Positions 7,101 to 60,091 of a DNA stretch of 64,000 nucleotides are shown piece by piece. The translations under genes were made by a program, and so were the position numbers. The notes below the pieces were generated by a model. It saw nothing but the letters and a program-made list of their open reading frames with translations. It was not told the origin of the DNA and ran no database searches. The stretch is from Rhodopirellula bahusiensis (GTDB lineage Bacteria > Planctomycetota > Planctomycetia > Pirellulales > Pirellulaceae), in contig NZ_NIZW01000007.1 of assembly GCF_002727185.1 (NCBI RefSeq), positions 248,001-312,000 of the forward strand, written 5' to 3'. The stretch's first letter is position 1, and each line of letters starts with the position of its first letter.

Positions 7101-8981
7101 TCAGGATGGGCTTCGGTGTCGGTATGGATTGAACAGCAAGTAGTTCAAGTGGCGATACAAATCGCTTGAATTCAGCAACTCGGTGTGACGCCCCTCGCCG
7201 ACCAAATTAGGTCCATTGAGCAACATCACCCGATCACATGAACGTAGCGTCTTCAGCCGGTGAGGCAACATGACCACCAACGAACCGGCGTCGGCCAATT
7301 CACGCAATGCATTCAGACACGGGTCTTCATTGACATGCTCGGTCGGGGCAGGGGGCTCTTTGGCGAGCACGATCGGAGGCCGGTGCAACATCGCACGGGC
7401 AATTCCAACCGCGTAGCGAACATCCGTGCCGAGCGAATCGGAATCTTCGGTCGCCCCCAAATTCGAACCGGGCTCAATGATCGTCTCCAAGCCCTCGGGC
7501 AGACGAGTGATTCGTTCGTAGATCCCAAGTCGCTCGAGCGTTTCGACCATGTCACGGTTGTCGACGCTGCGGTCGACTCCCGCCATCAAATTCTCACGTA
7601 ACGAACCTTCCCAAAGCGGACCGTCGGGACCGATCCACATCACGTTCTTCGCGAGGGCCTGTGGGTGAACATCCAGTAGCGAGATGCCATCTATCTGGAC
7701 TTTGCCACGATGCGGCCGACCAAACCCCATCAACAATTCGAGCAACGCCCGCGTTGAAACATCTTCGGTCCCCAAGAACGCCACCAGCGACTTTGGTTGC
7801 AGCGACAAACTCAGGTCTCGCAAGATCGGCTTGCCCGCCGAATCTTGTAGTGACACGTCTTCCATCGTCACGCAATCACGAAGACCGCCCAGTCCAACAC
7901 GTTGTTCGCTGGGAGACGTTTCGCTGTTCGGCTGCAGATACAAGTAGACCGATTCGCACGCTTTACTACTGCGACGCAATTGACGATTCAGTTCGCTCAA
8001 TCGAGCCGCAGCCAAAGCCGCACCGGTCAGCGACAAACCAAGCACCAGCGCCGACGGAAGGCTCAACCCTTGCTCGCCTTGCAGTGTGTTCAGGCCAAGC
8101 CCCAACAACATGACCGCGATCGCAACGCCGCCGGCCATCATCATCACCGGCCACAGACGACCTCGTCTCGCGTCGTCACCAGCGATCCGGCGATCGAGCG
8201 CTTCCAGCTCCGCTTCGTAGGCTTGATCAGCCAAACCACCGGCTTGCAAACGAGCCATCATGGGTGCGTCGCCAATCAATCCAATCAGACGATCGCGAAT
8301 TTGAGGGATTTCGAAACGCGACAGCTCCAACCAGTCTGGGTTGCGAAGCTTGGCGTACAAACGCCACAGAGCAACGCCACTGATGACGGCAAGGATCGCC
8401 AGCCAAACGTTGACAAGCAATGCCAGTGTCACGCAGCCGATCAACATCAAAACACTGCGCGGGATGGATCGGTACCACAGCGAAAGACCTCGGCCGACTT
8501 CGGGTAGATGCCGACCGATGATCACGCGTGCTCGTTCGCGTTGGGCAGCGGCACCTTCGACTTCTGCGCGACGCAAGCTTTGCTTCAGCGTTCGCGAATG
8601 CAACATTTTGATGACGCGTCGGGACCGCGCATCGGCCGAGCGGCGATGCAACCAAACGGCGAAGCAAAAGATCACTGCGATCGCCAAGGACACACCCACA
8701 AGGCCGAACAACTGAACGACTTTGCTTTGCGCCAAAAACAGTTCTGGCAATGGAATCGACAGGTGAGTGCCCAGACGCAGTGGCGACTGCGTCAGCCCGT
8801 CACCTTCGTCCACCAGTGCGGCGATCACACCGAAGACCAGAACCAAGACCGGTATGATCAAACCAGCAACGGCAGCCCAAACCAAATGCAGGGGAGCCCC
8901 CGCCGCCTCGGGTTCGCGACGCGGTTGTTTCAGACTGGAAAAGCGATTCACTGTTGCGAGCCTCGTTGAAAACCTAGCCAC
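7101..8981 (-). CDS. ABC exporter-fold protein with degenerate nucleotide-binding domain
   Basis: A 626-aa protein built like an ABC half-exporter: N-terminal membrane segments near residues 30-55, 90-110, 175-205 and 280-325, then an ABC ATPase-like domain from about residue 370. The domain keeps the fold landmarks (SLRENLMAG, GIARAMLHRPPIVL, and the switch His in VVMLPHRLKTLRSCDRV). However Walker A reads GTEDVSTR with no Lys, the Q-loop Gln is replaced (IGPDGPLW), the signature LSGGQ is replaced by SLGTDVRY, and Walker B LLDE has become VLAKE. It is unlikely to hydrolyse ATP. GTG start at 8981. It sits between an ABC-2 permease (9083) and a CPBP protease (6315) in an apparent operon. Confidence 0.82.
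   Translation of the reverse strand: MARFSTRLATVNRFSSLKQPRREPEAAGAPLHLVWAAVAGLIIPVLVLVFGVIAALVDEGDGLTQSPLRLGTHLSIPLPELFLAQSKVVQLFGLVGVSLAIAVIFCFAVWLHRRSADARSRRVIKMLHSRTLKQSLRRAEVEGAAAQRERARVIIGRHLPEVGRGLSLWYRSIPRSVLMLIGCVTLALLVNVWLAILAVISGVALWRLYAKLRNPDWLELSRFEIPQIRDRLIGLIGDAPMMARLQAGGLADQAYEAELEALDRRIAGDDARRGRLWPVMMMAGGVAIAVMLLGLGLNTLQGEQGLSLPSALVLGLSLTGAALAAARLSELNRQLRRSSKACESVYLYLQPNSETSPSEQRVGLGGLRDCVTMEDVSLQDSAGKPILRDLSLSLQPKSLVAFLGTEDVSTRALLELLMGFGRPHRGKVQIDGISLLDVHPQALAKNVMWIGPDGPLWEGSLRENLMAGVDRSVDNRDMVETLERLGIYERITRLPEGLETIIEPGSNLGATEDSDSLGTDVRYAVGIARAMLHRPPIVLAKEPPAPTEHVNEDPCLNALRELADAGSLVVMLPHRLKTLRSCDRVMLLNGPNLVGEGRHTELLNSSDLYRHLNYLLFNPYRHRSPS
7346..7353 (+). repeat. KOPS-type octamer GGGCAGGG
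   Basis: Plus-oriented, antisense to its host gene. It lies in the codons for EPPAP, the position of the Walker B/D-loop region of the degenerate ABC protein. Confidence 0.6.
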
Positions 8982-9082
8982 CGTTCGTTTGTCATCCCGA
9001 TCGCACTCGTTGCGATCGACGATCCGTCACGACCGGTCACTGTTCTTCCTGGAACGAGTTTCCAATGCAACAGATGTGGCAA

Positions 9083-10852
9083 TCAAGCCAAATCGCGATC
9101 TTCAAACAACAACATCGCGACCATCCAAATGGCAATGACAAAGACCACAAGATAGTTGAATGCGGCAGCAAGGTAGATCAGGGGGATGGCATTTCCCGCA
9201 TCCACCGCCGCCTGAACGTTGAATGAGTTCAGGTTGGGGACCACGACCGCTATCAATTTACCAACAAATCCGACCAGCTCGGTGTTTTCCCTGGCAGATG
9301 CGACCAGCGGACTGAGAAGGTTCCCGACAACATAAATTGCGAAACACGTGATGAAATTGGCCAGCAACGGCAATCGAGTCGCCAACGCCACGGCGATACC
9401 GCCGATCGCCATCGTTTCCATGAAGTACAGGCCCAAGATCGGAAGCGTCGTGATGATCTCTTCGTGACCGACTTGCCATGGCGGTTGTTGCTGGCTGGTC
9501 TCGCGAGCGTCATAGATCGGCTTGTAGGACATCACGACCAACAGGACCGCTGCCAAAATCACGAACAGCACCAACACGGACAACATGATTCCGGTGTACT
9601 TGCCCAAGATGAACGAACGTCGACTCACTGGTTTACTGAGCACGGTCAAAGCGGTCCGGCCGTCGATTTCGTCGCTGACCGAGGTGCCCGCACTCCAAAC
9701 GGCGAGCAACATGCCCAGGACCATGATCATCGTCACGCCGCTGTCCTTCAACAAACGAATATCGTCGCCCAGCGTGTTGAACGGGAAGATCCCAAAGAGC
9801 AGCACCGCGAAGATCCCGATGGCCAACAACAACAGGTAAAGAGGCTGAGCCATCTCGTTTTTCGCAGTCGACAAAGCCAATGCCCACACCCGCGGTGCAG
9901 CCTGCCGCACGGCCATAAAACCGGTCAGCGTCAAAAACAATGCGACGGCCGAGAAGACGATCGACGAAGCTTGCGGAACCTGGGGCAAGTTCTTGAATGT
10001 GAAGACCACGCGAGCGGGGTCGATTTCTTGGTTGTAAATGTGCAGTTTGGACGGATCACCTGGAATCGGTGGCTGCTCTCGGTCCTGGTATTTGTAGGTG
10101 ACTGCTTCGGTGCTGCCGGGGTTCAATTCGATGGGAGCACGGCTGAAGGCTTCCGCTTTGTCCGAATCAGCCAGGAAGACTTTCTTGTCGCTTTCGATCC
10201 GCAGTTCCGCGACGTTGCGAAAGTTGTAGGTGATCTCAGCAGGCAGGAACTCGGGGATGTCAGGATCCGACGAGGGATCGATCGTCGCGACTTCGACCAC
10301 CGTTCCGTCTCCGACCAAATTGACCGCGGGCACGCTTTCCAAAATGGCCATTGGCTCTTCGACAAACGGCGTCGAGCCCAGACCGATGACAGCGAACAAG
10401 CCCAGCGTGCCCAAGATGTACGGGATGACACCTTCACCGAGAATCGACAACCACTCCGAACGAGTCCGATGCCACATTCCATAGATCAGGCCAAACCCGA
10501 GGATCATGCCCAGGGTCACCAATGGCAGGAACAGAAGCTGACCGTTCTCGCCGCCTTGTGGCACATAGAAGTAGCACAACAAACCGGAGAAGATCGCGCC
10601 GGCAACCAGCGACAACGTGACACCCCGTTTCGGGTCATCCGCCAGATTCCCAAGACCGGGAATGAACGACAGGGCACTCAAAATGCCGTGGATCACAGCG
10701 GTCACCAACGCACCGAGCAGCAACCCAATCGACAGCACCCAAATGGGCGTGACGAAGGCAGGCAACCACTTGCCAACCTGAGCGAGAGGTAGCAAACCCG
10801 ATTCAACACCAGCAAAATCGGAGAAGAGTGAAATAGCGGACCCAGCAATCAT
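9083..10852 (-). CDS. ABC-2 type permease, large
   Basis: A 589-aa polytopic protein. The N-terminal half has five or six hydrophobic helices, followed by a periplasmic domain (about residues 190-300, EITYNFRNVAELRIESDK and onwards), then a C-terminal block of helices. The segment AQPLYLLLLAIGIFAVLLFG followed by DEIDGRTALTVLSKPVSRRSFILGKYTG is typical of ABC-2 permeases (NosY/GldF type). Its ATPase partner should be a separate protein; the neighbouring ABC-like protein at 7101 has lost its ATPase motifs, and no intact ATPase gene is seen in the cluster. It lies 101 bp upstream of that gene on the same strand. Confidence 0.85.
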   Translation of the reverse strand: MIAGSAISLFSDFAGVESGLLPLAQVGKWLPAFVTPIWVLSIGLLLGALVTAVIHGILSALSFIPGLGNLADDPKRGVTLSLVAGAIFSGLLCYFYVPQGGENGQLLFLPLVTLGMILGFGLIYGMWHRTRSEWLSILGEGVIPYILGTLGLFAVIGLGSTPFVEEPMAILESVPAVNLVGDGTVVEVATIDPSSDPDIPEFLPAEITYNFRNVAELRIESDKKVFLADSDKAEAFSRAPIELNPGSTEAVTYKYQDREQPPIPGDPSKLHIYNQEIDPARVVFTFKNLPQVPQASSIVFSAVALFLTLTGFMAVRQAAPRVWALALSTAKNEMAQPLYLLLLAIGIFAVLLFGIFPFNTLGDDIRLLKDSGVTMIMVLGMLLAVWSAGTSVSDEIDGRTALTVLSKPVSRRSFILGKYTGIMLSVLVLFVILAAVLLVVMSYKPIYDARETSQQQPPWQVGHEEIITTLPILGLYFMETMAIGGIAVALATRLPLLANFITCFAIYVVGNLLSPLVASARENTELVGFVGKLIAVVVPNLNSFNVQAAVDAGNAIPLIYLAAAFNYLVVFVIAIWMVAMLLFEDRDLA

Positions 10853-11022
10853 GCTTGGCGACTCGTGTCGAGAAAAGTACGAAATGAACCTTCGGTCAGG
10901 CTGCTACGTGAGACCAGCCCGTTTGGTTTGCTACCAGGACGCGGATTCAAAGGATTTGTTTGCCCTGGCCAGTTTGCTTTTCTAAGCAATCGACCAGGTC
11001 CAACCGTTCCGTGAAAGCGGCT

Positions 11023-11619
11023 TCAGGAGTTGGAAGCGGACTCCGCACCGGGGGTCTTCTTCACCCCAACGCGAAAACCGCCGGTCGCCTTCAAATGCTC
11101 ACGCAGTCTCGCCCGGCAATCCGCCGCGAATTGAGCGACTGTTTCGGTGCGATAGTCTGGGTAGCTCCATCGGTGATGGATCCAACGGCCACCAACATAG
11201 TTCAGAGTGACCTCGGCAAAGATCCCATCTCGCAGATAAATCCGGTGATCGCGGTCCTTGATCGTCGCCAGCACCAATTTGGCTTGGCTGACGTATCCCG
11301 GATCCAAATTCAGCGGCCTAGGCTCGGAGTGATTCGAAAGTGAAGCGTATTCAGCTTCCCACTCGTTGGTGAGGTTCTTCCAGTCCGCCAATCCGGCCGG
11401 ATCCGCGAATTCTGCGATGCCGATCAGCTCCTTGGTCAAACCATCGCCCATTTCCGGTTGGTAAAACCCGCCCGCTTCGAAGGGACTGGGTGTGCCATTC
11501 TCACCGAGTTCACCCCAGCACTCCGCTAAACGCTGCTTTGCCCACTGACGAGCCTCCTCGTGCCGTGAAATCACGGCGCAGAAACGCACCACCGGCTCGA
11601 TCAATCGGATTTCGCTCAT
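11023..11619 (-). CDS. DUF4416 family protein
   Basis: A 198-aa soluble protein. The block GGFYQPEMGDGL, then LTNEWEAEYA, PRPLNLDPGYVSQAKLVLATIKDRDHR (residues about 103-130), and the segment IYLRDGIFAEVTLNY followed by WSYPDYRT match the DUF4416 family, a conserved bacterial protein of unknown function. It is the furthest upstream gene of the minus-strand cluster 11619-6315, separated by 170 bp from the permease, so co-transcription is uncertain. Confidence 0.8.
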   Translation of the reverse strand: MSEIRLIEPVVRFCAVISRHEEARQWAKQRLAECWGELGENGTPSPFEAGGFYQPEMGDGLTKELIGIAEFADPAGLADWKNLTNEWEAEYASLSNHSEPRPLNLDPGYVSQAKLVLATIKDRDHRIYLRDGIFAEVTLNYVGGRWIHHRWSYPDYRTETVAQFAADCRARLREHLKATGGFRVGVKKTPGAESASNS

Positions 11620-11698
11620 TCAGTTCTCTTCCATCGCATGCAAACTCTTGTTTTCATTGGCCACTCGCACACGCAACTGACCGTCCGAATCTTGGGCG

Positions 11699-11711
11699 GG
11701 GCAGGGCAGGG
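11699..11711 (+). repeat. Double KOPS-type motif GGGCAGGGCAGGG
   Basis: Plus-oriented, intergenic between the divergent DUF4416 and aminotransferase genes. Two octamers share a GGG. Confidence 0.7.
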
Positions 11712-11860
11712 GTGTCAATCGATCGAGCCTGACTCCCAAACGCGGACTACCGCAACCCGATGCGGTTGATATCCTGATCCACGAAACGAGCGTGATTTGC
11801 CGGAGATTTCTCCCGCATCCAGCCACAGCTTCCAACCTACATTCACCGGCACGAATCAAC

Positions 11861-12976
11861 ATGCATCCTTGGATCGCGGATCGAACGGCCTCCTTCGATA
11901 GCAGCGGAATCCGCAAAGTCTTTGACTTGGCGGCGAAACTGAAAGACCCGATCAATCTGTCGATCGGGCAACCCGACTTCGATGTCCCCGAGGAAATTCA
12001 AGACGCGACCGTCGATGCCATTCGATCTGGCAAAAACGCGTATTCGCCGACCCAGGGGATCGCTCCGCTGCGGGAAAAACTGCTGGCGGAGGTGAACGCC
12101 AAGTATCCCGGCCAAGATCGCGATGTGTTTGTCAGCAGTGGCACTTCGGGCGGTTTGGTCCTGTCGCTGCTGTCGATGATCAATCCGGGCGACGAAGTCA
12201 TCTTCTTGGATCCCTATTTCGTCATGTACCCGGCGTTGGTCAGCCTGTGTGGCGGCGTTCCCGTGACGATCGATTCTTACCCGGACTTTCGTTTGGATCC
12301 GGCCAAGATCGAAGCCGCGATCACACCGAAGACCAAGATGATTCTGGTCAACAGCCCCGCCAATCCGACCGGCGTGACCGCATCGGAGCAAGACTTGCGC
12401 GACGTCGGCGAGCTAGCTGCGAAACACAACATCGCGTTGCTATCGGACGAGATTTACAGCCGCTTCTTCTACGATGGCGACTTCGCATCGCCGGCGGCGA
12501 CCAACCCAGACACAATCGTGATCGACGGTTTCAGCAAGTCTCACGCGATGACCGGATGGCGAGTGGGTTACGTCCACGGGCCGCCCGAAATCATTGCGAC
12601 GATGCTGAAAATCCAACAGTATTCGTTTGTTTGCTCGCCACAGCCCGCCCAGTGGGGTGCTCTGCGAGCGATGGAAATCTCGCTGGACGGCCACATCGAC
12701 GATTACCGCCGAAAACGCGATTTCATGGTGGAACAACTGTCGCCACACTTCGAATTGACCAGCCCCGGCGGCGCGTTCTACCTGTTTCCCAAGGCCCCCG
12801 GCAACGAAGGCGGAACAGCATTCGTTGAACGCGCCATCGCCGATGGCCTGCTGATCATTCCTGGCAAGATCTTCAGCAGCCACGATTCTCATTTCCGAAT
12901 CAGCTTCGCGGCGAGCGATGACACGCTGCGTCGCGGTGCCGAAAAGCTGATCAAGCTGGCTGGCGACAATCGCTGA
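11861..12976 (+). CDS. Pyridoxal-phosphate aminotransferase, class I/II
   Basis: Aspartate aminotransferase-like PLP enzyme, 371 aa. Seen: NLSIGQPDFDVP at the N-terminus, YSPTQGIAPLREKL, NSPANPTGV (substrate Asn), LLSDEIYSRFFYDG, and the PLP-lysine motif DGFSKSHAMTGWRVGY. ATG at 11861 is chosen because the family start is close before the SGIRKVFDL segment; upstream in-frame codons have no ATG. It precedes metY and the metX-metW fusion on the same strand, which suggests a role in amino acid synthesis, but the substrate (aspartate, alanine, methionine or others) cannot be told from the sequence. Confidence 0.88.
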   Translation: MHPWIADRTASFDSSGIRKVFDLAAKLKDPINLSIGQPDFDVPEEIQDATVDAIRSGKNAYSPTQGIAPLREKLLAEVNAKYPGQDRDVFVSSGTSGGLVLSLLSMINPGDEVIFLDPYFVMYPALVSLCGGVPVTIDSYPDFRLDPAKIEAAITPKTKMILVNSPANPTGVTASEQDLRDVGELAAKHNIALLSDEIYSRFFYDGDFASPAATNPDTIVIDGFSKSHAMTGWRVGYVHGPPEIIATMLKIQQYSFVCSPQPAQWGALRAMEISLDGHIDDYRRKRDFMVEQLSPHFELTSPGGAFYLFPKAPGNEGGTAFVERAIADGLLIIPGKIFSSHDSHFRISFAASDDTLRRGAEKLIKLAGDNR

Positions 12977-13048
12977 ACGATTTGTTAGCCTGCTGCGTTC
13001 CCAACGCAGAAATTTCCCACTTTCAAACATCCCTGATCGAGTTTTTGC

Positions 13049-14368
13049 ATGTCCGCCGATCCGACCCAAAATCATCGTCTGGCCACCCGTGCTCTCCACG
13101 CTGGACAAGTTGCTGACCCAACAACCAAAAGCCGCGCGGTGCCGATCTACGCCACGACGAGCTATCAGTTTGACAGCACCGATCACGCGGCAGCCCTGTT
13201 CGGCTTGGCTGAGTTCGGCAACATCTACAGCCGATTGATGAACCCGACCGTCGATGTGTTGGAAAAACGCATCGCGGCGATGGACGGTGGTGCCACGGGA
13301 TTGTGTTTCGCATCAGGACAAGCGGCCATCACGGCAGCGGTTTTAGCAATCGCTCACAGCGGTCAGAACATCGTCAGCAGCACCTCGCTGTATGGCGGAA
13401 CCTGGACGCTGTTCACGCAGACTCTGAAGAACCTCGGCATCGAAGTTCGCTTCTTCGATCCGGATCACCCTGAGGAAATTCACGGACTGGTCGATGAAAA
13501 CACGCGACTGGTCTACATGGAGAGCATCGGCAACCCAAGAAACGATGTTCCGGATTTCAAAGCCATCGCCGACGCGGCCCACTCAGCTCCTCACGGGGCG
13601 ATCCCGGTCTTGTGCGACAACACCGTGATGACGCCTTACTTGCTGCGTCCGATCGAACACGGCATCGACATCGTGATCTACAGCACGACCAAATTTTTGG
13701 GCGGACACGGCACTCACATTGGTGGCTGCATCGTCGACAGCGGAAACTTCAAATGGGCCGACCAACCTGAAAAGTGGCCTGAGTTCTGCGGCCCCAGCCC
13801 TTCGTATCACGGTGCCGTTTTCGAAGAACACCTGCGTGGCATGGGCAACATTGCCTACAACGTCCACATCCGCACGCACTGGTTGCGTGACACGGGTGCA
13901 GCGATGAGTCCTTTCGCCGCGTTCCTATTCCTTCAAGGAATCGAAACTCTTCACCTTCGCATGCCGCGTCACTGCGAGAATGCGATGAAAGTCGCTGAGT
14001 TCCTCGAAGCTCACGACGCGGTCGAGTGGGTGAACTACCCCGGACTGAAGTCGCACTCTCACAACGCGATGGCCGAGAAATTCCTGACCAACGGCAAGGG
14101 TGCCATCCTTGGCTTCGGTATCAAAGGCGGCATGGAAGCAGGCAAGAAATTCATCAACGCTTGCCAACTGTGTTCGCATCTGGCCAACATCGGCGACGCC
14201 AAGACACTGGTCATTCACCCCGCCAGCACCACGCACCAACAGCTCGCCGAAGATGAGCAACGTCGCGCGGGAGTCAGCCCCGAGTACGTCCGCGTCTCGG
14301 TCGGGATCGAAGACATCGATGACATCCTCGATGACCTGAAACAGGCTCTTGCTGTTGCAACCGCGTAA
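13049..14368 (+). CDS. metY: O-acetylhomoserine aminocarboxypropyltransferase (sulfhydrylase)
   Basis: PLP enzyme of the Cys/Met metabolism family, 439 aa, that forms homocysteine from O-acetylhomoserine and sulfide. Seen: TRALHAGQ near the N-terminus, PIYATTSYQFDS, GNIYSRLMNPTVDVLEKRIA, the substrate-loop FASGQAAITAAV, and the PLP-lysine motif DIVIYSTTKFLGGHGTHIGG. The C-terminus has VIHPASTTHQQL and VRVSVGIEDIDDI. Length matches MetY rather than the shorter MetB/MetC group. The gene for the preceding step (metX) follows 101 bp downstream. Confidence 0.93.
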   Translation: MSADPTQNHRLATRALHAGQVADPTTKSRAVPIYATTSYQFDSTDHAAALFGLAEFGNIYSRLMNPTVDVLEKRIAAMDGGATGLCFASGQAAITAAVLAIAHSGQNIVSSTSLYGGTWTLFTQTLKNLGIEVRFFDPDHPEEIHGLVDENTRLVYMESIGNPRNDVPDFKAIADAAHSAPHGAIPVLCDNTVMTPYLLRPIEHGIDIVIYSTTKFLGGHGTHIGGCIVDSGNFKWADQPEKWPEFCGPSPSYHGAVFEEHLRGMGNIAYNVHIRTHWLRDTGAAMSPFAAFLFLQGIETLHLRMPRHCENAMKVAEFLEAHDAVEWVNYPGLKSHSHNAMAEKFLTNGKGAILGFGIKGGMEAGKKFINACQLCSHLANIGDAKTLVIHPASTTHQQLAEDEQRRAGVSPEYVRVSVGIEDIDDILDDLKQALAVATA

Positions 14369-14469
14369 CCCAACCGGAAATCGAAACGCCGCTTCCGAAT
14401 CCTTGGATCTCCCGCGAAAATTCTTCTGGGGGATCCGTTTGGGAAACGCCGTTCGAAAGCAAAGCTTCC

Positions 14470-16290
14470 ATGGGTGAGCCTTCCAATGAGGACCTGTCCA
14501 GCACCGACGATGTGCGGACCGACGCTCCCTTGGCGCACGCCAAGTACGTCACGTTTGATCAACCGCTGCCTCTCGAGCGTGGCGGCGAACTTCCCGAAGT
14601 TCGGTGCTGCTACGAGACTTGGGGCACGCTGAACGACGATGCATCCAATGCCGTGCTGGTCTGCCACGCGGTTTCGGGTGACTCTCACGCTGCTCGTCAC
14701 GACGCGGGCGATCAACCGGGTTGGTGGGACGGCTTGATCGGCCCCGGATTGCCCATCGACACCGATCGACTGTTTGTGGTTTGCCCCAACGTCCTGGGTG
14801 GCTGTCGCGGTAGCACCGGCCCCGGCGATGCGGATCCGACCTCAACCGACGGCAAACCCTACGGTGCCAACTTTCCACGGATCACCATCGGTGACGTCGT
14901 GGAAGTTCAGAAGCGACTGGCGGACCACCTTGGAATCAAACGATGGCGAGCGGTTGTCGGCGGATCGCTGGGCGGTCACCAAGTGTTACAGTGGATCAAT
15001 CGCTATCCCGACGCGGCCAAAACCTGCATCGCCATCGCGACCTCGCCTCGACTGAACAGCCAAGCGTTGGGGTTTGATGTCATTGCTCGAAACGCGATTC
15101 AAACGGACCCGCACTTTGCGGGAGGGCAGTACTACGACCAAGACCAACGTCCTGACACTGGATTGGCCATCGCGAGGATGCTCGGCCATATCACTTATCT
15201 TTCGGTCGAAGCGATGGAGGCCAAGTTCGATCCGGACCGCCACGATCCACGACAGATCGCTTCGCAATTCGAACAACGATTCAGCATCGGATCATACCTG
15301 GCACACCAAGGCCAAAAGTTCACGACTCGCTTCGATGCGAACAGCTATGTGACCCTGTCGATGGCGATGGACCTGTTTGATCTTGGCGGCACACGTTTGA
15401 AGTTAATGGAAACGTTTGACGAAGCGACTTGCGATTTCCTGCTGGTCAGCTTCAGCAGCGATTGGTTGTTCCCGCCGGCTCAATCCCGTGAAGTCGTCAA
15501 CGCACTGACCGCCCTGGACAAGCGTGTGACCTACGCTGAAATCACCACCAACGCTGGTCACGATGCGTTCCTGATCGCGAAAGACATTGCGACGTACGGT
15601 CCCTTGGTCCGCGAACGATTGCGAGACACAGAAACTCATCCAGCGGTCCCTTCCGATATCGCTCTCAATGTGGATGAGGAATCGATCCTGGACATCATCC
15701 CGGCGGGATCCAGTGTGCTCGACCTTGGCTGCGGCAACGGACAACTGCTCGCCGCGATTCGAGATCGATGCCGAGACTCTGGTCTCGTTGCGACAGAGCA
15801 CCGCTTGATGGGAGTCGAGGTCGCTCAAGAGAATCTTCTTGCGACCGCGATGCGTGGCATCGACGTGATCGACTACGACCTCAACCATGGATTGCCTGCT
15901 TTCATCGACAACCAATTCGACTACGTCATTCTCAACGCGACATTGCAGGCGGTCGAGAACGTGGAGGAACTGCTGGGCGAGATGCTACGAGTCGGTCGAC
16001 ACGCGATCATCAGCTTTCCCAACTTTGCCTATCGCCAACTCAGAGATCACTACGTGACACATGGGCGATCGCCGAAAGCACCCGGCGAGTTTGACTTCGA
16101 TTGGCACAACACGCCGAATCGTCGCTTCCCCACAATTGCCGACGTCCGGGACCTGCTGGGTCAACTGAACGTCGTGATCGATCAGGAAGTCTTCTGGGAC
16201 GTTGATCAGGGCCAACGCATTGACCCTGACAACGATCCCAACTTGAATGCCGATACAGCGGTGATTGTTTTTCACCGCAAAGATCAGTAG
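14470..16290 (+). CDS. metXW: Homoserine O-acetyltransferase fused to MetW
   Basis: Two proteins in one chain of 606 aa. Residues 1 to about 385 are MetX, an alpha/beta hydrolase that acylates homoserine: VCHAVSGDSHAA, NVLGGCRGSTGPG, nucleophile Ser in GGSLGGHQVLQW, Asp in SSDWLFPPAQ and His in NAGHDAFL. From about residue 400 a MetW domain follows, a SAM-methyltransferase-fold protein that partners MetX: SVLDLGCGNGQLL, DYDLNHGLPAF, FDYVILNATLQAVEN, and ISFPNFAYRQLRDHY. In many bacteria metX and metW are adjacent separate genes; here there is no stop or restart between them. Acetyl versus succinyl donor is not decided by what I can see. It lies downstream of metY. Confidence 0.92.
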   Translation: MGEPSNEDLSSTDDVRTDAPLAHAKYVTFDQPLPLERGGELPEVRCCYETWGTLNDDASNAVLVCHAVSGDSHAARHDAGDQPGWWDGLIGPGLPIDTDRLFVVCPNVLGGCRGSTGPGDADPTSTDGKPYGANFPRITIGDVVEVQKRLADHLGIKRWRAVVGGSLGGHQVLQWINRYPDAAKTCIAIATSPRLNSQALGFDVIARNAIQTDPHFAGGQYYDQDQRPDTGLAIARMLGHITYLSVEAMEAKFDPDRHDPRQIASQFEQRFSIGSYLAHQGQKFTTRFDANSYVTLSMAMDLFDLGGTRLKLMETFDEATCDFLLVSFSSDWLFPPAQSREVVNALTALDKRVTYAEITTNAGHDAFLIAKDIATYGPLVRERLRDTETHPAVPSDIALNVDEESILDIIPAGSSVLDLGCGNGQLLAAIRDRCRDSGLVATEHRLMGVEVAQENLLATAMRGIDVIDYDLNHGLPAFIDNQFDYVILNATLQAVENVEELLGEMLRVGRHAIISFPNFAYRQLRDHYVTHGRSPKAPGEFDFDWHNTPNRRFPTIADVRDLLGQLNVVIDQEVFWDVDQGQRIDPDNDPNLNADTAVIVFHRKDQ

Positions 16291-51317: not shown

Positions 51318-51349
51318 GAAAGAGCCAGCGAAAACCGACCGGCGGATCA

Positions 51350-51370: not shown

Positions 51371-51396
51371 ATGCGGAAGCGTTTCGGGACCGTCGC

Positions 51397-52320: not shown

Positions 52321-52351
52321 TGAAACGCGAACGGAAAGGAGAGCACGGATG

Positions 52352-52359
52352 GGGAAGGG
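52352..52359 (+). repeat. KOPS-consensus octamer GGGAAGGG
   Basis: Plus-oriented, intergenic; the last plus-strand match in the window. Confidence 0.5.
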
Positions 52360-52550
52360 CGGTCCGACACTATTCCCGAGACAACAGCCACCACCAAACC
52401 GTGAGGGCGGAGCAGGGCGGTCGCGCACCGAGAACCATTGGCGTTACCAAATCCGGATGCCCGCCCGCCATGGGGAAAAATATTCGATCTGAACTGCGAA
52501 ACAGACGAAGCTTCTCGGCTTGCCTCCAAAGCACGCAAAATTGCTGTTCG

Positions 52551-52558
52551 CCCTGCCC
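52551..52558 (-). repeat. KOPS-type octamer GGGCAGGG, minus orientation
   Basis: Intergenic, upstream of cvpA. It is the leftmost copy with the C-type core in the minus orientation. Confidence 0.65.
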
Positions 52559-52619
52559 CTCTGCTTTTGCTACAAGCGTCAAAACGGTTCGGATCCGTTG
52601 CAGCGGTGAAAGTGCGCAC

Positions 52620-53402
52620 ATGCAGACTTACGACATCCTGATGACGATCATCCTGGTCGGCGCAACCCTTCTGGGCGCGATCCGTGGATTTGCATGGCAA
52701 CTCGCTTCGATCGCTTCCATCGTCGTCAGCTATGCCGTCGCGTACCACTATCGCGAACCGTTCAGCCAGAACATTCATGCTGCGCCGCCTTGGAATCAAT
52801 TCCTGGCGATGTTCATCCTGTTCGTCGGCACATCCTTCGTCATCTGGGTCGCACTGCGAATGGTCAGCGGAATGATCGACCGAATGCGGCTGAAAGAATT
52901 CGACCGCCAGATCGGAGCTCTCTTTGGACTCGCCAAAGGAGCTCTGCTGTGCACGATCATCACGCTCTTCGCGGTCACGCTTTTTGGCGAACGAACTCAG
53001 CGAGCGATCGTGGCCAGCGAGAGCGGCCGATTGATCGCACGCGTGCTCGCCGAATCCAACTCGATCATGCCGCCGGAACTGAACACGGTCGTCCGACCCT
53101 ATTTGGACCAATTCGGTGATCAGCCAGACTCAGACGAATCTTGGCTGTCGCGATCCCAAACGCCACCGAACGTCGATCCAAATTGGAACAATCAGAACGC
53201 TCAACCAGCGAATGACTTCGCGCCGCAAAACGGCTTTCAGCAAGCTCAAAACAGCCCGCGAACACAGCAGCCTTTCGGCGGCTTTGGCGGAGGCTCAACA
53301 TCAACCGCTAGCTCGACACCCAACGCCGCCGCGAGCCCGCAACAGCAGGCGCCGACATGGCGACAATCCGCGACGCCGCGATGGCAAACTCCGCGACGAT
53401 GA
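52620..53402 (+). CDS. CvpA family membrane protein
   Basis: A 260-aa protein. Residues 1-165 form the CvpA domain with four helices: YDILMTIILVGATLLGAIRG, FAWQLASIASIVVSYAVAYH, FLAMFILFVGTSFVIWVALR, and IGALFGLAKGALLCTIITLF, with the typical RGF and DRxxGALFGLAKG motifs. The C-terminal 90 residues are Gln/Asn/Pro-rich and low in complexity, probably disordered. The last residues (ATPRWQTPRR) are encoded by the first unit of a 105-bp tandem repeat that continues after the stop. ATG 52620 starts the first helix. CvpA proteins affect colicin V production, purine synthesis or envelope integrity. Confidence 0.87.
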   Translation: MQTYDILMTIILVGATLLGAIRGFAWQLASIASIVVSYAVAYHYREPFSQNIHAAPPWNQFLAMFILFVGTSFVIWVALRMVSGMIDRMRLKEFDRQIGALFGLAKGALLCTIITLFAVTLFGERTQRAIVASESGRLIARVLAESNSIMPPELNTVVRPYLDQFGDQPDSDESWLSRSQTPPNVDPNWNNQNAQPANDFAPQNGFQQAQNSPRTQQPFGGFGGGSTSTASSTPNAAASPQQQAPTWRQSATPRWQTPRR

Positions 53403-53678
53403 TCGCTCGGCCGGCGTTCAAAACGCGACAGCGAAACGATCGCAATTTTGAATTCGCAAGGACGGCGAAAATCCGCGACGCCGCGATGGCAAACTCCGCG
53501 ACGATGATCGCTCGGCCGGCGTTCAAAACGCGACAGCGAAACGATCGCAATTTTGAATTCGCAAGGACGGCGAAAATCCGCGACGCCGCGATGGCAAACT
53601 CCGCGACGATGATCGCTCGGCCGGCGTTCAAAACGCGACAGCGAAACGATCGCAATTTTGAATTCGCAAGGACGGCGA
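53360..53678. repeat. Three tandem copies of a 105-bp unit
   Basis: The unit (beginning near AATCCGCGACGCCGCGATGG and ending GCAAGGACGGCG) is repeated three times with almost no divergence; period 105 measured from 53468 to 53573. The first copy carries the cvpA stop codon. Because 105 is divisible by 3, open frames persist through it on both strands (35-aa repeats), but I regard these as by-products, not genes. Confidence 0.9.
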
Positions 53679-53789
53679 ACGATCGGGGCGGGGCGTCCTC
53701 CAGATCACCGGCGCCCAGACATCTGCAACGTCACGAAACCAAACCCCAGACGCAAAACACGCCTGAAACACTGGTTTTACGCACCTCGA

Positions 53790-53817
53790 ATACAACATAA
53801 GGGGCATTATCGGACGT
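53790..53817 (-). other. dif: Candidate dif site (XerC/XerD recombination site)
   Basis: A 28-bp site with an 11-6-11 layout, read on the minus strand as XerC-type arm ACGTCCGATAA, spacer TGCCCC and XerD-type arm TTATGTTGTAT. The XerD arm agrees with the E. coli arm TTATGTTAAAT at 9 of 11 positions; the XerC arm agrees with the B. subtilis arm ACTTCCTAGAA at 8 of 11 but with E. coli at only 5. The inner ATAA...TTAT symmetry is as expected. It lies in an intergenic region close to where the orientation of the GGGNAGGG motifs reverses. Arm comparisons rest on recalled dif sequences. Confidence 0.62.
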
Positions 53818-53939: not shown

Positions 53940-54899
53940 TCAGCTCTCTTCCAAGAAGACGCCGAGCCGGCGGAATTTTTCGTAGCGTTGCTCGAGCATC
54001 TGATCGACCGGCATTTCTTCCAATTCAGACAACTGACGCGACAAATAAGTCTTCATCCGAGTCGCCATTTGATGGTGGTCACGATGAGCGCCACCGAGCG
54101 GTTCTTCGAGCACATCATCAACGACGCCGAGACGCAACAAATGGTCGCTCGTGAACCGAAGCGCGGCGGCCGCTTTGGGCGCGTGTTCGTGACTCTTCCA
54201 CAAAATTCCGGCACAGCCTTCCGGGCTGATGACGCTGTAGTAAGCGTGCTGCAAAACCGCGACTCGATCGCCAACGCCGATCCCGAGAGCACCACCGGAT
54301 CCACCTTCGCCGATCACAACGCAGATGACCGGCGTTTTCAGATCACTCATCATGAACATGCTTTCGGCGATCACTTGAGCCTGGCCGCGCTCCTCGGCAC
54401 CGATCCCCGGATAGGCTCCGGGCGTGTCAATGAAACAAATGACCGGCAAGCGATATTTCTCGGCCATTTTCATTTTCACCATGGCCTTGCGATAACCTTC
54501 CGGATGAGCGCAACCAAAGTGACAAGCCGCACGTTCCTTGTAGGTCCTACCTTTTTGGTGACCGATCACCATCACCTTGAATCGATCCAATTTCGCGAAA
54601 CCGGACAGCATCGCGCGGTCATCGCCAAAGTGCTTGTCACCGTGCAATTCGACAAACTCGTCAAACGCTAAGTTGAGGTAATCGCGCGTGTAAGGCCGGT
54701 TCTTATGACGAGCCACTTGGACCGTTTGCCACGGATCCAATGATGAGTAAGTCTCTTTCAATTTGGCAACGCGTGCCAAACGCAACGATCGAATCGCTGT
54801 GTCAATTTCTTCGCTGCGATCGGTGTTCCGTTCCAAAGAAGCAATTTGCCCCTCCAGATCAGCGATCTCGTTTTCGAATTCCAATCCAGGTCCGGCCAT
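53940..54899 (-). CDS. accA: Acetyl-CoA carboxylase carboxyltransferase subunit alpha
   Basis: Transfers carboxyl from biotin carboxyl carrier protein to acetyl-CoA in fatty acid synthesis. The 319-aa protein shows LEFENEIADLEGQIASLE near the start, ARHKNRPYTRDYLNLAF, FVELHGDKHFGDDRAMLSGF, GHQKGRTYKERAACHFG, CFIDTPGAYPGIGAEERGQA, VVIGEGGSGGALGIGVGDRV and YYSVISPEGCAGILWKS, all of the AccA family. It lacks the Cys4 zinc finger, which is in AccD. ATG 54899 is 3 bp from the stop of the Ser/Thr kinase gene, so the two are translationally coupled. accD is not in the window. Confidence 0.94.
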   Translation of the reverse strand: MAGPGLEFENEIADLEGQIASLERNTDRSEEIDTAIRSLRLARVAKLKETYSSLDPWQTVQVARHKNRPYTRDYLNLAFDEFVELHGDKHFGDDRAMLSGFAKLDRFKVMVIGHQKGRTYKERAACHFGCAHPEGYRKAMVKMKMAEKYRLPVICFIDTPGAYPGIGAEERGQAQVIAESMFMMSDLKTPVICVVIGEGGSGGALGIGVGDRVAVLQHAYYSVISPEGCAGILWKSHEHAPKAAAALRFTSDHLLRLGVVDDVLEEPLGGAHRDHHQMATRMKTYLSRQLSELEEMPVDQMLEQRYEKFRRLGVFLEES

Positions 54900-56024: not shown

Positions 56025-56037
56025 CCCTGCCCTCCCC
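56025..56037 (-). repeat. Overlapping KOPS-type octamers, minus orientation
   Basis: GGGCAGGG (56025-56032) and the variant GGGGAGGG (56030-56037) read on the minus strand, in the gap between the glycosyltransferase and kinase genes. Confidence 0.65.
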
Positions 56038-56103
56038 TTGGTTCACGGACGCAGAGCTCACGCGACGATTGTCGAGAGGTGGAGCGCCGTGACGGAGGGC
56101 CGC

Positions 56104-57348
56104 TCAGTTGGCCGCGATCAGTTCCGAATACAATTCGCGAATTCGGCGAGTCATCGTCTCGTGCCGGAACAGATCCGTGAACCGGGTTTGGCCTTCACGC
56201 CCCATCCGCTGACGAAGTTCGGCGTCGCCAACCAAACGAATCATCCGGTCTGCCAGTTGGTCGAGCTCCCCTGCCCCGACCAAGTATCCGGTCTGGTCAT
56301 CGATCACAACTTCGCGAGCGCCATCGATGTCGTAGCTGATCGCTGGTCGACCCGCGATCAAAGCTTGCGGCAACGCCCGAGCCAAACCTTCTCGGTAGGA
56401 AGCGTGAACCAGAACGTCCATCGCACCAATCATGGCGGGCACCTCCGACGGTGGCACCAACCCGGTAAAAATGAAGTTCTCCTGCAAACCCAGCGATTCA
56501 ATCTGCTGTTCGAGTTCCGCACGAAGGATCCCATCCCCCACAAGCAAGAACCGCACGTTCGGGTATCGGTCCGCAACACGCTTCGCAGCGGGGATCAAAT
56601 CCACGTGACCCTTCAAGTGAAACAGTCGAGCAATCTTGCCCACCACAACATGCTCGTCCCGCAGACCGTACTTTTGCCGAACCGCTTCGCGGTGATCCGC
56701 CGCATGAACAAACGGGTCGACGTTCATCCCGCTGTGAATCGTCACGAACTTTTCGCGAGGTGCGACGCCCGCATCCACCATCAGATCCGTCATCGCATCG
56801 GCGACCGAGATCAATTTGTGACAACGGGACGCGGCCCAACGCTCACACCGTACGAAGAAGTCATGAGCCAGCTTGGATTGGTACTCATGAAAGGGAGCGC
56901 CATGAACCGTGTGGACGACAACGGGACGTTTGCCAGTGGAGGTTCGCTTCAGCCCCCATCCGACGTGTCGGCCAAGCAAACCACCTTTGGCGCTGTGCGT
57001 GTGGACGACATCAGGATCAAAGCCCAACAACGTCCGTCGTAAATCGCGAGCGGCTTTCCAGTCGTTCACCGGATGAATCGCACGACGAAGGGAGTCGATC
57101 AGCTCGATTGGCAAACCGTCCAGTTCGAACCGCCCTGCCCTGCCCTGAGTCTCAACCGCAGAATGGTCGCCACTGCGTGCATCAGACGGGACACGTTTGG
57201 AAAGCAAGTCTCCTTCCGGTCCAACAGCGGGCCCGGTAACGAGCAAGACCTCGTCCCCATGAAGATGAACGAGGTCCTGGCAATTGTGCAGCGTGTTTTC
57301 TTGCGCGCCGCCAATGATCATTCGGGTGATCACATGGGCGATACGCAT
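56104..57348 (-). CDS. Glycosyltransferase family 4 protein
   Basis: A GT-B fold glycosyltransferase of 414 aa. N-terminal domain: RIAHVITRMIIGGAQENTL (GGAQ loop) and FDPDVVHTHSAKGGLLGRHV (HTHSAKGG motif). C-terminal donor-binding domain: VGKIARLFHLKGHVDLIPA, RFLLVGDG, FIFTGLVPPSEVPAMIGAMD and the E-x7-E motif in SYREGLARALPQALIAGRP. Donor and acceptor are unknown; probably cell-surface polysaccharide or glycolipid. The loop TQGRAGRFEL near residue 67 is encoded by a KOPS-type motif. It lies between the kinase-accA pair and the sigma factor, all on the minus strand. Confidence 0.9.
   Translation of the reverse strand: MRIAHVITRMIIGGAQENTLHNCQDLVHLHGDEVLLVTGPAVGPEGDLLSKRVPSDARSGDHSAVETQGRAGRFELDGLPIELIDSLRRAIHPVNDWKAARDLRRTLLGFDPDVVHTHSAKGGLLGRHVGWGLKRTSTGKRPVVVHTVHGAPFHEYQSKLAHDFFVRCERWAASRCHKLISVADAMTDLMVDAGVAPREKFVTIHSGMNVDPFVHAADHREAVRQKYGLRDEHVVVGKIARLFHLKGHVDLIPAAKRVADRYPNVRFLLVGDGILRAELEQQIESLGLQENFIFTGLVPPSEVPAMIGAMDVLVHASYREGLARALPQALIAGRPAISYDIDGAREVVIDDQTGYLVGAGELDQLADRMIRLVGDAELRQRMGREGQTRFTDLFRHETMTRRIRELYSELIAAN
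56269..56276 (-). repeat. KOPS-type octamer GGGCAGGG, minus orientation
   Basis: Sense within the glycosyltransferase gene (codons for VGAGEL). Confidence 0.6.
57133..57145 (-). repeat. Double KOPS-type motif, minus orientation, inside a coding region
   Basis: GGGCAGGGCAGGG on the minus strand, sense; codes for QGRAG in a loop of the glycosyltransferase. Confidence 0.7.
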
Positions 57349-57356
57349 GAAAGGTC

Positions 57357-58154
57357 TTAAGCCCCGAACTCAAGGCGACGAACGCCGAGTTGCTGTTGCA
57401 AACGATTGACGATGGCGGTGTGCATTTGGCTGACGCGAGATTCGGACAGGTCCAAAGTGGCCCCGATCTCTTTCATCGTCAGTTCTTCGTAGTAGTACAG
57501 AATGATGATCAGACGCTCGTTGCGGTTCAACCCTTTGGTGACCAAACGCATCAAATCGTTTTTCTGGACACGACGAGTGGGGTCTTCGCCCTTCTTGTCT
57601 TCCAAGATGTCAATCTCACGAACATCTTTGTAGCTGTCCGTTTCGTACCACTTCTTGTTCAGCGAGACGACGCCGACGGCGTTGGCTTCGCTTTGCATCT
57701 TTTCCACTTCTTTGATGTCGATCTCCATGTGAGCCGACAACTCTTGGACGGTTGGTGCACGACCAAAGCGAGCTTCCAAGGTTTTGGTCGCGGTGGCCAG
57801 TTTGCTGGCTTTACTGCGAACCAAACGTGGAACCCAGTCCATCTTGCGAAGTTCGTCGAGCATTGCTCCCCGGATCCGAGGCACGCAAAACGTTTCGAAC
57901 TTCACGCCGCGTTCGGTGTCATAGGCGTCGATGGCGTCCATCAGGCCGAACATACCGGCACTGATCAAGTCATCCAGTTCCACGCCATCGGGAAGTCGTT
58001 GCCAGATGCGTTCGCCGTTGTAGCGAACCAATTGCATGTAGCGTTCCACCAACTGGTTCCGCAGCGGCTCGTAGTCAGGAGCATCCTTGGTGGTGGATTT
58101 AAAAGAAGTCCATACCTTCAAGATTGGGTCGTCAGCAGTTGCGGTAGCCGGCAT
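57357..58154 (-). CDS. fliA: RNA polymerase sigma factor, FliA/WhiG type
   Basis: Flagellar/sporulation-type sigma-28. The 265-aa protein has region 2 (YEPLRNQLVERYMQLV, LDDLISAGMFGLMDAIDAYD, VKFETFCVPRIRGAMLDELR, then DWVPRLVRSK), region 3 (TVQELSAHMEIDIKEVEKMQ) and region 4 (GLNRNERLIIILYYYEELTM, then EIGATLDLSESRVSQMHTAI). The DELRxxDWVPR motif is diagnostic for FliA/WhiG. GGAGGA lies 5 bases before ATG 58154, the clearest ribosome binding site in the window; an in-frame ATG seven codons upstream is therefore rejected. It directs late flagellar genes in other bacteria and lies downstream of flhF and flhA here. Confidence 0.93.
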   Translation of the reverse strand: MPATATADDPILKVWTSFKSTTKDAPDYEPLRNQLVERYMQLVRYNGERIWQRLPDGVELDDLISAGMFGLMDAIDAYDTERGVKFETFCVPRIRGAMLDELRKMDWVPRLVRSKASKLATATKTLEARFGRAPTVQELSAHMEIDIKEVEKMQSEANAVGVVSLNKKWYETDSYKDVREIDILEDKKGEDPTRRVQKNDLMRLVTKGLNRNERLIIILYYYEELTMKEIGATLDLSESRVSQMHTAIVNRLQQQLGVRRLEFGA

Positions 58155-58296
58155 AGAATCCTCCGTGATGATCACTGATTGCTCGTTTCATATCCGCAAC
58201 GGAAATCCGCTGCGTGTCCGTCACTAGCAATGAAATAAGTCTTGGTGTGTTTGAACGTGCGAGTCAATCAGCATCCGTGCCGTCAACAGTCCGCCG

Positions 58297-58566
58297 TCAT
58301 TTGGTTTGGTTTTCGGTTTCTTCCGCTGTCGTTTCGGCGACACCTTCCTGAAACCACTTCACTCGTTTGCGATACAAGTCTTCCACTCCGTCTCGGATCA
58401 ACTGATCCGCAATGGTACCCGCCAAACCTCCGATGCCCATGAAAACGATCAGAGTTCCGATCGCTTCGGAAGCAACGTCTCCGGCCATCTCTCCATGCCA
58501 GATTCCGCGAAGGACAACCAGTCCCATTGCGAAAGATCCAAGCGATAGAGCCAATGATCGGGTCAT
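58297..58566 (-). CDS. Small two-TM membrane protein in flagellar cluster
   Basis: An 89-aa protein with two predicted helices: SLALSLGSFAMGLVVLRGIW (residues 4-23) and AIGTLIVFMGIGGLAGTIAD (35-54), then a short charged tail (DLYRKRVKWFQEG, AEETENQTK). No family recognised. It lies between flhF and fliA, the place where flhG/fleN stands in many flagellar clusters, but has no ATPase motifs and cannot be FlhG. It may be a lineage-specific flagellar or envelope protein. Confidence 0.6.
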   Translation of the reverse strand: MTRSLALSLGSFAMGLVVLRGIWHGEMAGDVASEAIGTLIVFMGIGGLAGTIADQLIRDGVEDLYRKRVKWFQEGVAETTAEETENQTK

Positions 58567-58744
58567 GTCACCGTCCAGACAGTGAAGGCAGGCCAGAAAA
58601 TAAAAACGGGCCGAATTCTTCTATCCCAAACTCGTTAAACGGACACTTCAAAAAAAGTCTCAAGTGACTTTCGTCGATCACGTGCCGTCGCAGTTCAGAG
58701 TATCGGTCGACTTCCCGTTGATACTTCAGTCAAAATCTTTGAAA

Positions 58745-60091
58745 TTAGGCGGCCTCGCCATAGTGCAAAGATTCGTACCCGTCCATTGTTTCAATCCCCA
58801 TCTCCCCCAATCCAGCCGTGGGCATGTGTGGCAACAATTGTGCCACCAAGCCTGCAGCGTCAGCCACGGCGATGTCATCGGGGACTTGTTGACCATTGGT
58901 CAAGTAACTCAGCGGAGGCGCGACGATGCGATCACGCCCCGTCAAAGCGGCCAACACGGCCGCCATGCAAGGTGTCTCGTCGAGCTTGGTCAATGTGACC
59001 GCATTGGCTCGCACCGGGGCGAAGCCTTCCAGCGTCGTCCGGATGTTTTCACCCGAACTGGTCGCACTGAGAACCAAGTGTGTTTCATCAGGATGCGCCG
59101 CCCGTAAAAACTCAGAGAGTTGTTCAATGCGGGCGTCACTTCGTGGGCTGCGGCCGGCGGTATCGATCAGTACAAGATCCACATCACCGAGCGCACTGAG
59201 CGCCGTTTCCATCTGTTCCGGTTTCTCAACGACCTGCATCGGCAGGTCCATGATCTCAGCGTAGGCCTTCAGTTGCTGCACCGCAGCGATTCGGTAGGTG
59301 TCAATTGTCAGCAATCCAACCCGCCGGCGAGCTTCAATGCGGAAGCCTGCCGCTAGCTTCGCGACCGTCGTTGTTTTGCCCACTCCAGTCGGTCCGACTA
59401 ACGCGACCACGTGACGATCACCCGGTTGAGTTCGAATGGGTCCGCATAGGTTCAATTCGCGAGCCACGGCACGTTGCAAGTGCTCCATCCAACGCCGATC
59501 GGTCTGTGCCGCAGGATCGGAATTCGCGATTCCTGCAGCGAAACTGGACGCCGAAGCCATCCATCTGCGTGCGGTGGCTTCTTCCACACCAGCCTGAACC
59601 AGACGCAATGACAAGGAATCGGCTGGACTCAGTTCATCGGACGAATAACCCGAGCCATAGAAACCGCCCTGCCCTGCCCCGGTCCCAGACTGAAGTTGGT
59701 GAGCGGCATCATAATTTTGATAATTTGCTTCAGCAGAATTCTGCCCTGCGGAAACGGACATCGAACCAGCAGCATTGCTCGGCGTGCCGGTCGGTGACGT
59801 CCCGTAGCCGGAAGACGCCGCAACGGAATTCACCGAACGAACATCAGCGGGCGGCAACGGTTCGTCCCCGTAGTTTGCCGGGATGCGACCGCCAGCGGCA
59901 TCACGAGAGGATCCATCCACGGAACCACCATGCAAACCTGCGGTGACTTCCACATGAGTTCGGCCAAGCCAACCCATCCAACCATTGCGGACCTGCCGCG
60001 TATGCAGCACGGAAGCTTCCGGGCCCATTTGGTTTCGGATGTCGGCAAGCGCCGCTTGCAGATTCGCTGCTCGAAAAGTTCGGATATGCAT
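58745..60091 (-). CDS. flhF: Flagellar biosynthesis GTPase FlhF
   Basis: SRP-type GTPase that sets flagellar number and place. The 448-aa protein has an N-terminal B domain (HIRTFRAANLQAALADIRNQ), a long low-complexity Ser/Gly/Asn-rich linker (about 75-165), and the NG domain: VALVGPTGVGKTTTVAKLAA (G1), LLTIDTYRIAAVQQLKAYA, DVDLVLIDTAGRSPRSDARI (G3) and TLKLDETPCMAAVL-type segment VTLTKLDETPCMA (G4). The ATG at 60091 overlaps the flhA stop by one base (TGATG), so translation is coupled to flhA. A KOPS-type motif encodes GAGQGG in the linker. Confidence 0.93.
   Translation of the reverse strand: MHIRTFRAANLQAALADIRNQMGPEASVLHTRQVRNGWMGWLGRTHVEVTAGLHGGSVDGSSRDAAGGRIPANYGDEPLPPADVRSVNSVAASSGYGTSPTGTPSNAAGSMSVSAGQNSAEANYQNYDAAHQLQSGTGAGQGGFYGSGYSSDELSPADSLSLRLVQAGVEEATARRWMASASSFAAGIANSDPAAQTDRRWMEHLQRAVARELNLCGPIRTQPGDRHVVALVGPTGVGKTTTVAKLAAGFRIEARRRVGLLTIDTYRIAAVQQLKAYAEIMDLPMQVVEKPEQMETALSALGDVDLVLIDTAGRSPRSDARIEQLSEFLRAAHPDETHLVLSATSSGENIRTTLEGFAPVRANAVTLTKLDETPCMAAVLAALTGRDRIVAPPLSYLTNGQQVPDDIAVADAAGLVAQLLPHMPTAGLGEMGIETMDGYESLHYGEAA
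59667..59679 (-). repeat. Double KOPS-type motif, minus orientation, inside a coding region
   Basis: GGGCAGGGCAGGG on the minus strand, sense; codes for GAGQGG in the disordered linker of FlhF. Confidence 0.7.

Follow-up and report, generated by a model that had tools for sequence, protein, structure and literature searches.

Probable FtsK orienting polar sequences and a candidate dif site in Rhodopirellula bahusiensis, a planctomycete whose GC skew does not switch at dif

In a 64,000-nucleotide stretch of the Rhodopirellula bahusiensis genome (the window; bases 248001-312000 of contig NZ_NIZW01000007.1, here C7, of 382,819 bases), G-rich octamers of the form GGGNAGGG lie on one strand up to a point near 53.8 kb and on the other strand beyond it. 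These octamers are very likely (probability about 0.93) FtsK orienting polar sequences (KOPS), which would lead the DNA translocase FtsK to dif at 53.8 kb for the resolution of chromosome dimers by XerC and XerD. The identification of the KOPS and of dif is well supported by sequence comparison, and the 28-base dif is probably the site at which joined daughter chromosomes are cut apart; it is proposed to mark the segregation terminus. This budding-type bacterium thus seems to possess a classical chromosome-separation system; FtsZ is reported to be missing from its phylum, the Planctomycetota. The genome comprises 7.78 Mb in 63 contigs, and the comparison covered 60 genomes of its order (its own included), 13 of which belong to the same genus.

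Octamers and dif in the window and on contig C7

The original prediction listed GGGNAGGG octamers converging near 52-56 kb, and every coordinate on its list holds an octamer. The window contains 26 of them (overlapping count), compared with 5.34 on average and at most 11 in 100 shuffles. Seventeen lie on the plus strand at 13 loci and eight on the minus strand at five loci, to which a contrary variant, GGGGAGGG, has to be added. The meeting point is dif at 53.8 kb and not 52.35-52.55 kb, where the strand switch had been read. Relative to dif, 17 plus and 2 minus octamers are found on the left and 0 plus and 7 minus on the right (Table 1). The variant at 32232 had been taken as the only site breaking the rule; it does so, and the minus site at 52551, 1.2 kb left of dif, is a second small exception.

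The main form of the motif is GGGCAGGG, which makes up 51 of the 67 GGGNAGGG octamers pointing toward dif on C7 and often occurs in overlapping pairs as the 13-mer GGGCAGGGCAGGG. The right series continues past the window along the contig, and over the whole of C7 GGGCAGGG is found 32 times on the plus and 3 times on the minus strand left of dif and 0 and 19 times right of it, that is, 51 toward and 3 away. A second-order Markov model expects 2.1 plus and 4.1 minus copies on C7, versus 32 and 22 observed. When 8-mers were scored for polarity relative to dif as (toward minus away)/sqrt(sum), GGGCAGGG ranked first of the 20,579 with at least 15 occurrences on C7. The spacing shortens toward the switch, as had been noted, and the density climbs from 5.3 per 100 kb at distances of 150-300 kb (measured on the left, as the contig ends on the right) to 65 per 100 kb in the nearest 10 kb (both sides). 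Genome-wide, the excess of GGGCAGGG is modest, 245 copies versus 169 of the reversed control, and in the one-contig same-genus relative G004 221 versus 138; this excess is concentrated near dif.

Gene direction does not set the orientation, as had been claimed. According to crude gene calls made in this analysis, the 32 plus motifs left of dif fall in plus genes (16), minus genes (7), and intergenic DNA (9), the 3 minus motifs there in one plus and two minus genes with none intergenic, and the 19 minus motifs on the right in 2 plus genes, 13 minus genes, and 4 intergenic places. A mild coding-strand preference of GGGCAGGG is present; gene direction was rejected as the cause of the orientation near dif.

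The dif candidate, first spotted by eye and then searched for, consists of an 11-bp XerC-type arm, ACGTCCGATAA, a 6-bp centre, TGCCCC, and an 11-bp XerD-type arm, TTATGTTGTAT. Which arm would bind XerC and which XerD is assigned by analogy with the dif of E. coli. The dif pattern has this site as its sole match in the window at up to 3 mismatches, with 0.00 expected, a figure to be read as post hoc since the pattern was taken from the site itself. The 22-bp core (17 fixed bases) has 1 perfect match in the genome and 2 more at 3 mismatches. dif is located between a CvpA-family gene and accA, with a tandem repeat directly beside it that is dispensable for the favored explanation.

Table 1. Positions in the window of the octamer groups, of dif, and of its neighbors
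Feature	Position	Strand	Remarks
Left KOPS group	7346..52359	+	17 GGGNAGGG octamers at 13 loci (7346, 11699, 25969, 29653, 37225, 41839, 44999, 45249, 47763, 48349, 50430, 51406, 52352); some are overlapping doubles, GGGCAGGGCAGGG
Contrary variant	32232..32239	-	GGGGAGGG, flagged in the original prediction
CvpA/Colicin V production family gene	52320..53402	+	left of dif; Pfam PF02674, 95.2 bits
Minor exception	52551..52558	-	GGGCAGGG, 1.2 kb left of dif, where plus is the rule
Tandem repeat	53359..53679		105 bp, 3.1 copies at 99% identity, directly left of dif
dif (candidate)	53790..53817	-	28 bp; ACGTCCGATAA, TGCCCC, TTATGTTGTAT
accA, acetyl-CoA carboxylase alpha subunit	53940..54899	-	right of dif; Pfam PF03255, 451 bits
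Right KOPS group	56025..59679	-	7 GGGNAGGG octamers at 4 loci (56025, 56269, 57133, 59667)

Conservation of dif and of the polarity in relatives

Among the 60 genomes of the order, 22 (own included) have a dif-core match at up to 2 mismatches, 16 of them perfect and 6 with 2 mismatches. The perfect cores are those of all 13 same-genus genomes, each with one (G001 has an extra match with 2 mismatches), and of G018, G023, and G025, which belong to other genera. G042, whose sole dif-like match has 2 mismatches and lies away from the convergence of its 13-mers, was excluded from the dif comparisons, and the 5 other 2-mismatch matches outside the genus were also left unused. In a sample of 199 genomes from the phylum, 81 hold the dif pattern with no more than 1 mismatch and 118 do not, compared with a single genome for the reversed control; two or three matches occur in six of the 81, and all 9 genomes of one family of the same class (f21) carry one. 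Loci from other classes of the phylum (L333-L352) stand outside the evidence on polarity, as their stretches are too short.

From titled public records 75 accA loci were collected, of which 63 have a single dif match. Since the search itself fixed the pattern's own columns in these 63 dif-bearing loci, the pattern-independent evidence lies in the outer bases AACGTCC, which are absent from the search pattern and present in 63 of 63. The outer XerD-type arm exists in two versions. The orientation of dif relative to accA is opposite in four loci (L216, L217, L218, L222). The 12 loci without a match were left out; they comprise L190, L191, L192, and L240 (kept as a control), L244, L245, L246, and L252, and L209, L212, L214, and L219, whose contigs end within 1.3 kb past accA.

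The polarity extends well beyond the source genome. Of 374 copies of GGGCAGGG in the 63 loci, 357 point toward dif and 17 away (left, 207 plus and 5 minus; right, 12 plus and 150 minus), and 49 loci are without any contrary copy. Here too, GGGCAGGG has the highest polarity, ranking first of 22,465 8-mers with at least 40 occurrences. The 13-mer GGGCAGGGCAGGG was found in 54 of the 60 genomes of the order (own included) among the matches listed, with 0-1 per strand for the reversed control. On the dif-bearing contigs of G002, G004, G007, G018, G023, and G025, 86 of 87 copies point toward dif, the exception being in G007; since the sites overlap and the genomes are related, these are not independent trials. 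One copy, on contig C7 of G025, was kept out of the 87, its position relative to dif being unplaced.

A natural control is provided by L190, L191, L192, and L240, four accA loci that lack a dif match and in which GGGCAGGG runs unflipped across accA (36 plus, 1 minus), and the flip thus follows dif and not accA. Important to note here is that these loci may represent one clade and a single event and that the dif match was judged at the accA locus only. Perhaps dif or accA was relocated in them. One of the control loci is titled Stieleria sedimenti; L202, from Stieleria tagensis, does carry dif.

In G004, where dif lies at 4.44 Mb, GGGCAGGG occurs 52 times on the plus and 7 times on the minus strand at 2.7-4.42 Mb and 18 and 103 times, respectively, from there to the record's end (the latter counts obtained by subtraction from totals). 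Its density is 63.8 per Mb at 3.95-4.42 Mb versus 12-29 per Mb in the other bins.

The FtsK, XerC, and XerD machinery

The genome has one FtsK-gamma match, in a protein that carries alpha, motor, and gamma domains, the first and last corresponding to PF17854 (Pfam name FtsK alpha) and PF09397 (Pfam name FtsK gamma). The best XerD and XerC candidates score 374.8 bits (curated cut-off 329.6) and 353.4 bits (cut-off 335.15), respectively. The XerD model has 24 matches in the source genome, and in each of five genomes two matches of at least 320 bits stand out among 4-35 in total. The KOPS reading of the original prediction is well supported by the polarity beyond the window, the flip at a conserved dif, the rising density, and the presence of genes for FtsK-gamma, XerC, and XerD.

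By analogy with E. coli, FtsK-gamma would load on GGGCAGGG in one orientation, and FtsK would then move the DNA so that dif is reached from both sides and would activate XerD there. XerC and XerD would finally resolve chromosome dimers at dif during division.

Four observations weigh against this interpretation. The gamma domain aligns with FtsK-gamma domains of solved structure, but its helix reads GYGRAAR..D where the latter have GYNRAAR..E. In E. coli, N, R, and E at these places contact KOPS, and G, R, and D stand at the aligned places here; with N and E replaced, the reading of the bases may differ in detail. One of the control octamers discussed below, GGGTGGGG, is itself biased toward dif (16 toward, 5 away). 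In parts of G004 remote from dif, mixed or reversed polarity is seen, with 1 plus and 5 minus at 0-0.5 Mb, 1 and 4 at 1.1-1.3 Mb, and 3 and 9 at 1.9-2.7 Mb; no sharp point of KOPS divergence was found there, the polarity turning near 0.5 Mb and staying mixed to 2.7 Mb. The segment at 1.9-2.7 Mb, mostly against the dif direction, is perhaps due to a past inversion or to mere composition. Finally, GC skew on C7 does not switch sign at dif and is negative in nearly all 10-kb steps on both sides.

GC skew and the source of the polarity

The skew at third codon positions on C7 is -0.181 in plus genes and -0.047 in minus genes left of dif and -0.195 and -0.005 right of it. In the two one-contig same-genus relatives, the skew was followed in 20-kb samples (G004, 80 samples, 22% of the chromosome; G002, 40 samples, 11%). 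It switches at 5.38-5.45 and 1.90-1.97 Mb in G004 and at 0.93-1.09 and 4.58-4.74 Mb in G002, whose dif lies at 2.01 Mb. Within this partial sampling, the nearest switch is therefore 0.92-1.08 Mb from dif. The positive arm of G004 is interrupted at 0.09-0.38 Mb by a small stretch of negative skew. When genes of each strand are taken separately, the difference between the arms of G004 is still seen, and it is thus not made by gene orientation. As G002 is read in reverse orientation (judged by the strands of dnaA and parB), the offset between skew and dif has the same direction in both species.

Across loci, skew was compared at the 55 of the 63 dif-bearing loci with both flanks longer than 3 kb, with genes of both strands taken together. 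Of the 28 loci with the Rhodopirellula-type dif, 24 keep the same skew sign left and right of dif, as do 18 of the 27 loci that have the other dif. In the second group the mean does switch sign, from +0.014 to -0.027, and in both groups the skew falls on average by 0.04 from one side of dif to the other, following the direction of the motif. The mismatch between skew and dif is thus clear within the genus and less so outside it.

It has to be considered whether the polarity is a passive product of strand composition, with G-rich octamers simply following a G-rich replication strand. The drop of 0.04 across dif fits such an origin, and far from dif in G004 the strand of the octamer often agrees with the skew, at 0.5-1.1 Mb (8/0) and 1.3-1.9 Mb (9/1) in the positive arm and at 1.9-2.7 Mb in the negative arm, with disagreement at 1.1-1.3 Mb. 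Next to dif, however, motif and skew were found to have opposite signs, since the plus strand left of dif is C-rich and yet carries the G-rich motif, and at 2.7-4.42 Mb in G004 the polarity runs against the skew. Moreover, four G-rich octamers with other central bases are far less polar in the 63 loci (GGGACGGG 13/7, GGGTCGGG 14/13, GGGTGGGG 16/5, GGGCTGGG 27/31; toward/away), and the copy number on C7 far exceeds the Markov expectation. As the skew keeps its sign across dif and its nearest switch is about 1 Mb off, the polarity near dif is no by-product of GC skew; passive composition was rejected as its source there, and we regard it as most improbable. Much the same improbability attaches to the octamer being a Chi-like or other repair motif that is maintained on a single strand in each replichore. 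Chi-type octamers are likewise G-rich and strand-biased, but such a role predicts neither the flip at dif nor the twelvefold rise in density toward it, nor the absence of the flip where dif has no match. KOPS remains the reading that we favor for these octamers.

Does the dif switch also mark the replication terminus?

It had been concluded from the octamers that the two replichores meet here, and this is only partly supported; that the forks meet at the dif switch is tentative and, in our judgment, somewhat less probable than the opposite. Distances from the point opposite dif were obtained by arithmetic on mapped gene and dif positions. dnaA lies 26 kb (G004) and 8 kb (G002) from this point, as is fitting for a terminus at dif, but 1.09 Mb (G018) and 1.07 Mb (G023) in the other two genomes. 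parB is found 335, 251, 347, and 635 kb from it in G004, G002, G018, and G023, respectively, and in G018 it adjoins three sites that are one mismatch from parS. The skew speaks against forks meeting at dif: none of the switches found in G004 and G002 coincides with dif, and the nearest one has the sign usual for a replication origin. A skew terminus far from the window, which had been named as refuting the original prediction, is thus seen in part, in the skew of C7 and of the two relatives. dif and the replication terminus can also differ elsewhere, as described in the available text for P. aeruginosa PAO1-UW (PMC6199493) and for several large replicons (PMC13342612).

The usual bacterial parS was set aside as an origin marker. 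At up to 1 mismatch it was found in none of 6 of the 8 genomes searched, with one site in G042 and the three-site cluster in G018, and as its reversed control gave 1 to 5 matches per genome, only clustering counts. A search for parS variants in the G004 samples and C7 gave one weak match. All eight genomes (G000, G002, G004, G007, G018, G023, G025, G042) have at least two DnaA-like genes, the second being weaker, and G023 has a third weak match.

A possible account, to which we give somewhat less than even odds, is that the segregation axis (dnaA, dif, and KOPS) and the GC-skew axis are both nearly diametral but offset from one another by about 1 Mb, the offset having the same sense in two species. 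Should replication go with the GC-skew axis, these chromosomes would replicate along one axis and segregate along another, both being stably maintained; should it go with the dif axis, GC skew would not arise here from replication in the usual way. In both cases these chromosomes would depart from the 13 kb that Bhowmik et al. (PMC6199493, available text) give as the mean separation of GC switch and dif where dif is canonical and the skew forms two clear domains.

Relation to known systems

The system resembles that of E. coli (KOPS GGGNAGGG, FtsK, XerCD-dif) in the class of octamer, its polarity, the flip at dif, the rising density, the 11+6+11 bp layout of dif, and the encoded XerC, XerD, and FtsK-gamma. 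It differs in that GGGCAGGG is the main form, often as GGGCAGGGCAGGG, in the gamma helix, in the missing skew switch at dif, and in belonging to a phylum reported to be FtsZ-less. GAGAAGGG is the recognition sequence of SpoIIIE in B. subtilis, a system in which a polar octamer is likewise read by an FtsK/SpoIIIE gamma domain. It was set aside as the main code here: in the 63 loci it is likewise polar (25 toward, 5 away) but rare beside GGGCAGGG (357/17), and on C7 it is non-polar (3/4).

A KOPS polarity switch at dif is also described for large replicons and chromosomes (PMC13342612), in a paper whose text, as far as available, contains no word beginning with planctomyc. In PAO1-UW, according to the parts available, segregation and not replication ends at dif (PMC6199493), so that segregation is separated from another chromosome axis as may be the case here; skew switches lie within 15 kb of dif there, whereas none is found at dif in R. 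bahusiensis. Kono et al. (2011; PMC3025954) predicted dif in 16 phyla, and in the text seen the prediction failed in Planctomycetes; their dif shares the 28 bp and the palindromic inner arms with ours. In the planctomycete P. limnophila, ftsK is reported, in the text available, to be essential, and a 2025 paper (PMC12283558) describes its FtsK as lacking PF17854, there called the gamma domain, so that the accessible part of that paper appears to swap the Pfam names of the alpha and gamma domains. No planctomycete dif, KOPS, or replication terminus was found in the literature searched, which covered few subscription journals. Systems of this kind are known, and what is new relative to that literature is the phylum, the exact dif, and the lack of a skew switch at it.

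A possible use of dif by phages is suggested by viral contigs. Sixty viral-contig stretches carry CGTCCGATAATNNNNNTTATGTT, and in three (L277, L311, L322) the 28-bp site is identical to that of the Pirellulaceae accA loci L218 and L222. L277 encodes a terminase and a portal protein and L322 a terminase; four L311 frames were without a PHROGs match. None of the 60 stretches matched the three window proteins compared. It is possible that these three represent phages using a planctomycete dif.

Significance

The Planctomycetota, reported to lack FtsZ and among the failures of the 2011 dif survey, now have a precise candidate dif together with a KOPS code. With these, it can be tested whether FtsK in P. 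limnophila serves dimer resolution, budding, or both. The mismatch between skew and dif, in turn, offers a natural experiment on how GC skew originates and why it usually switches near dif.

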